Shown in pieces: positions 31,302 through 34,574 of a DNA stretch of 64,000 nt. The translations under genes and the position numbers were made by a program. The notes under the pieces were generated by a model. It made no database searches. It saw only the letters and a program-made list of their open reading frames with translations, and was not told the DNA's origin. How positions within the stretch are numbered: the stretch's first letter is position 1; each line of letters begins with the position of its first letter. Source of the DNA: Alicyclobacillus acidocaldarius subsp. acidocaldarius Tc-4-1 (lineage in GTDB: Bacteria > Bacillota > Bacilli > Alicyclobacillales > Alicyclobacillaceae); NCBI RefSeq assembly GCF_000219875.1, contig NC_017167.1, forward strand, positions 2,009,572-2,073,571, in the 5' to 3' direction.

Positions 31302-31870
31302 CTAGCAACCCAAGGCCGCCCCGCCAGAGGGATCTCCACAGGCGTCACTTCCCGCGGAACTCGCGGTACTGATTCTCAAAAGATTTTTCGCTGCGTTGAT
31401 GTCGCGGTCATGCCGCGTGCTGCACGCCGGGCACGTCCACTCCCGCGCCGACAATGGTAGCTCGCTTATCACGTACCCGCACGCCGAGCACGTCTTGCTG
31501 CTCGCGTAAAAACCGTGGTGCCACGATGAGTTCCGAGCCATACCACGCACACTTGTACGTCAACATTCGCCGAAAACTCGCCAAAAACCCACGTCCGAAA
31601 ATGGCTCGCGCCAACGCTCGATTCTGCACCATGCCTCGCACATGCAGGTCTTCGATGACGATCACTCGCTTGGTTTTCGCGAGCTCCGTCGTCACTTTGT
31701 GCAAAAAGTCCTGCCGTATGTTGCGGATCTTCCGGTGCAGCCGGGCAAGCGCCAGCGCCGACTTCCGCCGATTTCGCGAGCCTGGTCTCTTTCGGCTATG
31801 CCGCTTCGACAACCGCCTTAAGCGGCGAAGGTGTCGGACGAGCGGCTTTGCGAGTACGGATGCAGATCCG
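31302..31870 (-). pseudogene. tnpB: Frameshifted and N-terminally truncated tnpB (IS200/IS605 type)
   Basis: The minus strand encodes the C-terminal two thirds of a TnpB/OrfB protein: KRHSRKRPGSRNRRKSALAL, LHRKIRNIRQDFLHKVTTEL, VIVIEDLHVRGM, then the zinc ribbon CSACGY...CPACSTRHDRDINAAKNLL with the catalytic RDINAAKNLL Asp. The frame is broken at a run of five T (A5 at 31508-31512) just before YASSKTCSACG; one T too many separates the two halves. The N-terminal region is absent. No TnpA is nearby. The element is dead but marks an island edge beside the ars operon. Confidence 0.85.
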
Positions 31871-32063
31871 CACAACCGACGATGTTCGAACCTACGGTCG
31901 CCACAAAGACCGGATATCGGCTGTTGTGTTGAGAAACCACGATTCCAAGTAGGACATATCCTTGAAATCCGGCTCCAACGTCGCAATTCGATCTTCAATG
32001 CCTTGGTTGTAAATCGACAAATCGCCGTTATGTCTTATCGTGTCGCGATTCGCACATCGACAT

Positions 32064-32524: not shown

Positions 32525-33817
32525 CTAGTTCACAATCGCCAACCACCCATATAACCCCATCAGGGTGAGTAACAGCGTCGGCATCGTCAGGATGACACCC
32601 GTGCGAATGTAGGTGCCCCAGGTGACGTTGACACCCTTTTGACGAAGGACGTGCAACCAAAGAAGTGTCGCCAACGATCCGATGGGCGTCAGTTTCGGAC
32701 CCAAGTCACAGCCTATGACATTGGCATACACGAGCGACGTCTTGACCAGATGTGAAACATGCACGCCGTGAATGGCGAGCGCGTCGATCATCACGGTCGG
32801 CATATTGTTCATCACGCTCGACAGCACGGCCGCGAGAAAGCCCATCCCAAGCGTGCCTGCCAGCAGACCGTGATCGGCGAGGACTTGAATGAGCCCCCCA
32901 AGGAGGCTCGTCAGACCCACGTTTCGCAGTCCATACACCACGACGTACATGCCGACGGAAAAAAACACAATCGCCCACGGCGCGCCCCGAATGACGGACC
33001 AGGGCTGAATCACCCGGACTCGGCCACCATACACCAGTAAGGCGATGGCGATGGTCCCAGCCACGAGCGACACAGGCACATGCGCGATCTCCGTCACCAT
33101 GTAGCCTGCCATGAGCGCAACGAGGAGAATCCAGGACGCGCGAAATAGTCCTCGGTGTACAACAGCTTGGGATGGACGAGGAAGGAAATTTGGTTCGTAA
33201 CGCTCAGGGATATCCCTTCGGAAATAGAAGTACAGGACCCCGGTGCTCGCCAGAAGGGAGACGAGATCGGGCACAACCATCTTCGCAAAATAGGTCAGAA
33301 AACCAATGTGAAAATAATCCGCCGACACGATATTCACAAGATTGCTCACCACAAGCGGAAGCGACGTGGTGTCCGCGATGAAGCCGCTCGCGATGACGAA
33401 CGGAAACATGCGACGGGCATCGAGTTGGAGGAGCTTCATCTTCTCCAGAACGATGGGCGTGAGGATCAAGGCTGCGCCATCGTTGGCGAACACGGCAGCC
33501 ACAAGGGCCCCGAGAAGGATCACATACACGAAGACCTTCTTCCCATCTCCGCGCGCGGCTTTCGCCATCTTCAAGGCTGCCCACTCGAAAAATCCGACTT
33601 GGTCAAGCACCGTGGAAATCACAATGATGGCCACGAAAGCAAGGGTCGCGTCCCACACGATTTGCGTTACAGACCACACATCGCGCCAGGTAACCACGTG
33701 CAACAGAAGCGCGAGCGCCGCCCCTCCCATCGCGCTCCAGCCAATCGACAAGCCTCTTGGTTGCCAGATGACGAAGGTGAGCGTGACCAAAAACAACGAA
33801 ACTGCGACGTACGTCAT
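32525..33817 (-). CDS. arsB: ArsB arsenite/antimonite efflux permease
   Basis: ArsB exports arsenite across the membrane. The 430-aa product has about 11-12 TM helices, and the ArsB motifs [38 protein letters not shown] and [19 protein letters not shown] lies 5-7 nt before the ATG. It is an ion-transporter superfamily ArsB and not the Acr3 type often found in Bacillus. No arsA ATPase gene is present. Confidence 0.95.
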
Positions 33818-33878: not shown

Positions 33879-34193
33879 TCATTCCGACGACGAGGAACCT
33901 GTCGGACAGGTCGTACAACATGTCTCTGTGGACTTTTCGACCAAAATCCTTGACCCAGGTACACGGTCGTCTTCTTGGTCAAGGACCGCGAAAACTTCCC
34001 AACGAACCCCATTTGGATCTGTTGCCCAAATCTTGTCCTGCAGCGCGTAACAACACGTAGTATTCATCTCGTCAAAGGTCGCGAGCCACGCTTCTTCCAA
34101 TCGTGTCTTAGCAGCTAGGACTTCTTCCGTAGACGACACTTGCAATCCAAGGTTTCGCACGTTGATGGCGACGTGGGGCTTCCAGGCGAACAT
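33879..34193 (-). pseudogene. arsI: ArsI/CadI-like dioxygenase with internal deletion
   Basis: ArsI is a VOC-fold Fe(II) C-As lyase that demethylates trivalent organoarsenicals. This frame has the ArsI start (KPHVAINV) joined directly at residues 13-14 to NLGLQVSSTEEVLAAK, NTTCCYALQDKIW and WEVFAV. About 45-50 residues that normally lie between, including the first beta-alpha units and the second Fe ligand (His in NHLGIQV), are missing. The Cys47-Cys48 arsenical site and Glu67 remain. The frame stays open with 104 aa, but the product should not bind iron normally. ATG at 34193 has GGAG 10 nt upstream. Confidence 0.72.
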
Positions 34194-34546
34194 GGACAAC
34201 ACGCTCCTTTCTCATTTTGGTGAGAATCAACTGGCGTGATGAGTTCAGTCGTCAGCGCGTGAACCACCTCCTGTAGCGCTTCAGGATTTGGAAAGTAACA
34301 AGTCCAAGGACCGCGGGATTCTCTGCGAACCAATCCCACCCTCTCGAGAACTTTGAGATGGTGAGACACAGTTGGTTGTGATAGTCCAGTGACAGCCACC
34401 ACATCTGCGACGCAGCACCCATTTTCATACGCCTCAATACGATCGCAGCACGTTGCGATTGTGCCTTTGGCCATCAGTTGAAGAATATGAAATCGGCTCT
34501 TGTCCGCCAAGGCGTGAAGACGGTCGAGGAGGATATCATTTTTCAT
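34115..34546 (-). CDS. arsR: ArsR family metalloregulator
   Basis: This ArsR/SmtB winged-helix repressor of the ars operon has 143 aa. DNA binding is through GLSQPTVSHHLKVLERVGLV (54-73). Cys pairs at 33-34 (ATCC) and 44-45 (NGCC) are likely arsenite ligands near the helix. The C-terminal tail is Cys-rich (116, 117, 119, 130, 135, 137). Its last 79 bp overlap arsI, and residues after about 131 are read from sequence beyond the arsI deletion, so the present tail is probably not ancestral. A palindrome and a good promoter precede it. Confidence 0.9.
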   Translation of the reverse strand: MKNDILLDRLHALADKSRFHILQLMAKGTIATCCDRIEAYENGCCVADVVAVTGLSQPTVSHHLKVLERVGLVRRESRGPWTCYFPNPEALQEVVHALTTELITPVDSHQNEKGACCPCSPGSPTSPSTCETLDCKCRLRKKS

Positions 34547-34556
34547 ATCGATCACC

Positions 34557-34574
34557 ATCAATATCGATATTGAT
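34557..34574. promoter_or_regulatory. Perfect 18-bp palindrome, ArsR operator candidate
   Basis: ATCAATATCGATATTGAT is perfectly self-complementary. It lies 10 bp upstream of the arsR start and just downstream of the -10 box, a normal place for an ArsR operator. Confidence 0.75.

Follow-up and report, generated by a model that had tools for sequence, protein, structure and literature searches.

The operon closest in layout to the one considered here is that of the skin element of Bacillus subtilis, which reads arsR-arsI(yqcK)-arsB-arsC and which, according to the available sections of the paper describing it, combines a 146-residue ArsI, whose lyase activity has been described, with a pump of the Acr3 type (PMC12607644). 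The same sections report that the Fe(II) ligands of ArsI are Gln8, His65 and Glu117 in Thermomonospora curvata and His5, His62 and Glu115 in Bacillus, and that the substrate is bound by a vicinal cysteine pair, Cys98/Cys99 in T. curvata. Several types of As(III)-responsive ArsR are described in the available part of PMC11868830, namely R773 (Cys32/34/37), AfArsR (Cys95/96/102) and CgArsR (Cys15/16/55). No paper was retrieved by a literature search on Alicyclobacillus together with the terms ArsI and C-As lyase, and in the part available of the Alicyclobacillus mali FL18 genome paper the main text lists ArsM and ArsP and does not contain the term “arsI” (PMC8060452).

The window, that is, the whole stretch of 64,000 nucleotides analysed in this work, comes from the thermoacidophile Alicyclobacillus acidocaldarius subsp. 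acidocaldarius Tc-4-1, whose genome (G000 in our set) is a single contig of 3,124,048 bp rated 99.99% complete. On the minus strand the genes arsR, arsI, arsB and arsC follow one another (Table 1) in the same order as in the skin operon, with an ArsI of the same lyase family; the two operons differ, however, in that the pump of the window is a true ArsB, as revealed by a profile search, in that arsR overlaps arsI by 79 bp, and in that arsI is collapsed. We consider it very probable (about 0.85) that a dispensable C-As lyase gene decayed here through one deletion of 150 bp, which accidentally altered the repressor as well. The latter scores over the cut-off with both winged-helix models (NF033788, 67 bits against 55; PF01022, 44.6 bits against 22), and its structural model matches the fold of ArsR 6j05; a sequence search of the PDB with the ArsR profile gave no match at 1e-6. 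The palindrome preceding the operon is probably the ArsR operator; at 13 other ArsR loci the best upstream palindrome was perfect (12-18 bp) in four cases and imperfect in nine.

Table 1. Features of the ars operon and of its arsR/arsI overlap (positions in the window)
Feature	Coordinates	Strand	Remarks
Candidate ArsR operator, perfect 18-bp palindrome ATCAATATCGATATTGAT	34557..34574	.	Just 5' of arsR; putative role
arsR, winged-helix ArsR/SmtB repressor, 143 aa	34115..34546	-	HTH_5 and NF033788 over cut-off
ArsR residues 116-130, codons (CCPC...C), older Cys tail	34157..34201	-	Common to A. mali, G002 and the first G012 locus
ArsR residues 133-143, codons (LDCKCRLRKKS), new tail	34118..34150	-	Read from beyond the deletion
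Overlap of arsR with short arsI, 79 bp	34115..34193	-	Counted from the arsI ATG
Junction of the 150-bp deletion, 2 bp microhomology (AC)	34152..34153	-	From DNA alignment with A. mali
Short arsI remnant, 104 aa from ATG 34193 (107 from GTG 34202)	33879..34193	-	A. mali F15-H64 missing
arsB, arsenite efflux pump, 430 aa, intact	32525..33817	-	
arsC, thioredoxin-type arsenate reductase, 139 aa	32064..32483	-	TIGR02691 over cut-off

The reference for the deletion was locus L029 of A. mali, the nearest relative found with an intact arsI, which has the gene order of the window and an ArsI of 154 residues (genome G010 encodes the same proteins). From arsR through arsI into arsB the two sequences are collinear but for two gaps, one of 4 bp lying just 3' of the arsI stop and one corresponding to exactly 150 bp of arsI that are absent from the window; the alignment with G002 has a gap at the same place as the latter. 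The frame of arsI is kept, the protein being reduced from 154 to 104 residues by the removal of those corresponding to A. mali F15-H64, and the stop codon of arsR falls within the deleted segment. Since 50 ArsI codons were removed in frame together with the arsR stop, a single deletion accounts for both changes. The original prediction, that the start of ArsI is joined straight to a later part of the protein in a frame that stays open, was thus borne out by the DNA alignment; its estimates of about 45-50 skipped residues, including the second Fe(II) ligand, and of a junction near 34154 were right as to the missing histidine and the place, and can be refined to 50 residues and to the junction given in Table 1.

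That the gap reflects an assembly or sequencing error, the strain itself having an intact arsI, appears most improbable. Indeed, the ends of the deletion share just 2 bp, so that no repeat invites an assembly collapse, and the contiguity and completeness of the genome also speak against an error. The deleted arsI segment had no match elsewhere in G000, whereas the same query matched all three control genomes used as positive controls, and no second, intact arsI was detected in G000, where only one ArsI match reached E<=0.001.

The short ArsI lacks part of its catalytic apparatus. In the alignment, the column of the T. curvata ligand His65 is occupied by Asn, the glutamate ligand is kept as E66, and a histidine is present in the N-terminal region as H7; compared with the T. 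curvata enzyme, 50 residues of the N-terminal half are missing, among them, judging from its position, the equivalent of Tyr38. The loss of the metal-binding His and of these 50 residues should abolish C-As lyase activity. The NCBIfam ArsI model NF041414 gave 85.6 bits, below its cut-off of 116, over model positions 50-137 of 147. The equivalents of T. curvata Cys98, Cys99, Gln103, Lys105 and Glu117 are retained, so that the substrate-binding vicinal pair is present as C47-C48, and the Cys-rich C-terminal tail of ArsI is also preserved in the remnant.

This pattern raises the idea that the remnant might buffer or carry trivalent arsenicals without cleaving them, which we regard as very unlikely. 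In its favor, the remnant retains C47, C48, Q52, K54, E66, C92 and C93, none of which varies in a ten-sequence alignment (A1); moreover, genome G036 harbors another in-frame collapse of arsI that likewise keeps the C-terminal Cys pair, and Foldseek matches the model of this half to C-As lyase structures, with ArsI of T. curvata (PDB 5c4p and others) at ranks 1-2 (47% and 50% identity over 56-57 columns, from a low-confidence model). However, the AlphaFold2 model of the remnant, the short form being the only ArsI folded, reached a pLDDT of 49.6 and a pTM of 0.34, and because this confidence is very low the Foldseek match says little. The G036 remnant, in turn, is without the vicinal CC of the active site, the lesions at the first G012 locus, in G020 and in G015 are out of frame or interrupt the gene, and a Gly common to A. 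mali and G002 has become Trp in the window ArsI.

As to the decay of arsI, some features count against it: the remnant has stayed an open frame and retains both its start region and its stop, the deletion is in frame (a 1/3 chance), and the Cys-rich tail of the protein survives along with the As-binding Cys pair and the Gln, Lys and Glu residues of the ArsI site. The substitution patterns were inspected by assigning changes to branches by parsimony, with G002 as the outgroup. On the branch leading to the window, the arsI remainder accumulated two synonymous and five nonsynonymous changes, compared with 12 and 5 for arsR, 37 and 18 for arsB, and 49 and 23 for the two together (Fisher p = 0.09 for the latter comparison); on the A. 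mali branch the corresponding counts were 5 and 4 for arsI and 43 and 18 for arsR plus arsB (p = 0.45). The branch counts lean towards a relaxed constraint on arsI and are not significant. Also on the side against decay, the dN/dS ratio relative to A. mali was 0.35 for the arsI remainder, with 0.19 for arsR and 0.11 for arsB, and dS, calculated on small numbers, was 0.15 for the arsI remainder (33879-34152), 0.34 for arsR and 0.33 for arsB. So low a dS in the remainder is not accounted for by relaxed selection on its own, and may be due either to chance on small numbers or to local exchange.

An indication of the dispensability of arsI comes from the family. We searched 41 Alicyclobacillaceae genomes (including that of the window and several drafts in many contigs) with the window ArsR at E<=1e-25, retrieving 15 loci in 14 genomes, and we considered arsI intact when one unbroken tblastn match spanned at least residues 3-145. 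According to this definition, arsI is intact at eight loci (G002, G006, G010, the second locus of G012, G022, G023, G029 and G025) and broken at five, each with a different lesion. Besides the 150-bp in-frame deletion of G000, these comprise a nonsense codon, frameshifts and the loss of the C-terminus at the first locus of G012, where arsB comes next; about 251 bp missing out of frame in G020 relative to G022; a net loss of about 285 bp in frame in G036 relative to L030; and, in G015, an arsI ending after 43 residues and continuing into a sequence with the end of an IS66 transposase (PF13817), a break lying near a contig end, where an assembly join is possible. At the two remaining loci, in G028 and G017, arsI was not seen, and G017 has an arsI elsewhere (L008). 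The repressor gene, on the other hand, is open at all 15 loci.

Since no two of the five lesions are alike, they probably represent independent events, and because unrelated arsI lesions are so common in its relatives, the loss observed in the window looks ordinary. A spread of the same short ArsI over many lineages, which would be at odds with the original prediction, was absent: an end-to-end, one-piece match to it was found, among the 41 family genomes, only in G000, and the junction was absent from 29 other ArsI loci inspected. The cause of the decay is probably relaxed selection on arsI, because this gene has been lost repeatedly in the family, with arsR staying open. Such a pattern, five lesions in 15 loci with an open arsR, suggests that the exposure of these bacteria to organoarsenicals may be patchy, and it also suggests that an annotated “arsI” in Alicyclobacillaceae is no warrant for C-As lyase activity.

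Some minor observations concern other loci. In G020, the ATG of arsB at L080 is apparently lost through a 2-bp gap relative to L082, which might mean either that the locus decayed further or that the sequence contains an error. Within a different ArsI lineage (MTIKRMHVAVNC type), L011 and L015 exhibit frame breaks in the N-terminal half, where the draft state of the genomes may mislead; L056 and L057, from Paenibacillus, contain short ArsI pieces around the Cys pair, the rest of the gene being absent. The arsR ends of L030, L031 and L032 are the same as those of L004, L006 and L009.

The same deletion had a consequence for the upstream gene, since arsR, whose own stop lay inside the deleted segment, reads through to the stop at 34115. 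The predicted 79-bp overlap with arsI was confirmed, counting from ATG 34193. Counting in all cases from the ATG nearest to the conserved PHVAINV, the overlap is of 4 bp (ATGA) in G006, the second G012 locus, G022, G036, G020 and G015, of 1 bp in G029, of 13 bp in G023, of 46 bp in G002, and of 58 bp in A. mali (whose ArsR ends CETSMNR) and at the first G012 locus; in several of them an alternative ATG nine bases upstream is possible, giving 13 bp instead of 4, and 55 in G002. On the basis of these states, growth of the overlap appears to have proceeded in steps, with 1-4 bp followed by 13, then by 46-58 and finally by 79 bp. This apparent series represents a short set of repressor tails open to testing. 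In the 3' elongation model of overlap formation, as set out in the available part of PMC3887535, the upstream stop is lost and the next stop falls within the downstream gene, as it does here; nevertheless, that work simulates point mutations, whereas in the window a deletion took away the stop and would at the same time have disabled the downstream gene. The locus offers a small, clear case of two genes whose fates are tied by their overlap, a loss-of-function deletion in the downstream one having also rewritten the end of the upstream repressor. As a pseudogene-forming event the deletion is probably ordinary; its side effect on the overlapping repressor gene is unusual.

How deep this rewriting goes can be judged from the A. 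mali ArsR, which is 90% identical to that of the window. Eleven residues (133-143) stand in for the SMNR of A. mali, so that the end of the protein was indeed rewritten as anticipated, with the unbroken difference starting at 133 rather than after about 131. The further claim that the deletion created a new Cys-rich tail does not hold: out of the six cysteines in the tail, C116, C117, C119 and C130 are already present in A. mali, and only C135 and C137 are new. The idea of one event hitting both lyase and repressor therefore stands as far as the single deletion is concerned, the gain of a Cys-rich tail by the repressor being overstated.

It might still be asked whether the eleven residues, with their two cysteines, provide ArsR with an arsenic site or make an existing one better, the loss of the lyase being tolerated or co-selected. 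In favor of this idea, which we judge to be quite unlikely, one can mention the total of six tail cysteines, the conservation of C116 and C117 without exception across an alignment of five ArsR proteins, and the occurrence of a CC pair in the ArsR tail at 14 of the 15 loci, the exception being G017 with a single Cys. The pair occurs in G025 too, a genome with arsI on the upstream side of arsR, and is therefore more than a side product of the way arsI begins. Furthermore, according to the sections available of PMC11868830, AfArsR senses As(III) through C-terminal cysteines; in ArArsR, which is of a different type, the C-terminal Cys pair is dispensable. Also against an adaptive tail, the new end occurs in one genome only, residues 107-143 are predicted to be disordered (from an alignment of five sequences), and the core cysteines C33, C34, C44, C45 and C83 remain, all of them invariant in the five sequences. 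Simulated deletions of 3-399 bp removing the arsR stop of the A. mali locus (n = 20560, 6873 of them in frame) give, when in frame, an ArsR with a mean length of 143 aa and a median of 141, the observed one being 143, and add at least two Cys in 4.4% of the 6873 cases; among 792 tails of 5-20 aa read at any offset from five intact arsI stretches, at least two Cys occur in 20%. Hence, the length of the tail is typical and its two cysteines, which were picked post hoc, are at most mildly unusual. Nothing was found in favor of a benefit from the altered tail.

The combination of two working products, that is, an ArsI half that binds trivalent arsenicals without cleaving them and a six-Cys ArsR acting as a second-site sensor or holder, is extremely doubtful; if it were true, the operon would, in a single step, have exchanged the demethylation of organoarsenicals for the control of inorganic arsenic. 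If, as we prefer, arsI simply decayed, the remnant would be without lyase activity, the core domain of ArsR would still repress and sense, arsB and arsC would still confer resistance to arsenite and arsenate, and the new ArsR tail might have arisen from the gene overlap as a by-product that is neutral or close to it.

A plasmid source for the operon was also considered and rejected: among the 727 plasmid records that match it, no single place covers 80% or more of the query. Identity is 63.7-67.9% in the 20 matches listed, all of which begin at query position 896 or beyond, on the arsB/arsC side, and none of these 20 reaches arsR or arsI; four of the 727 records, outside the 20 listed, have their best place at 80-90% identity. 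In the first plasmid listed, from Alicyclobacillus sp. SO9, the pump comes directly after arsR. With regard to other arsenic genes, no arsM match over the cut-off of the PRK11873 model was obtained in G000 (best 68.5 against 263 bits); in the control genomes this model gave matches below the cut-off in 14 out of 14 and over it in one. An ArsP_1 match over the cut-off was found at G000:C1:1617940-1618329 (L074), within an open frame of 172 aa, covering model positions 10-139 of 294. Lastly, near arsC, at 31302-31998 on the minus strand, two ORFs in separate overlapping frames correspond to IS605-type transposase/TnpB pieces (PF01385, PF07282), probably a broken mobile element beside the ars operon.
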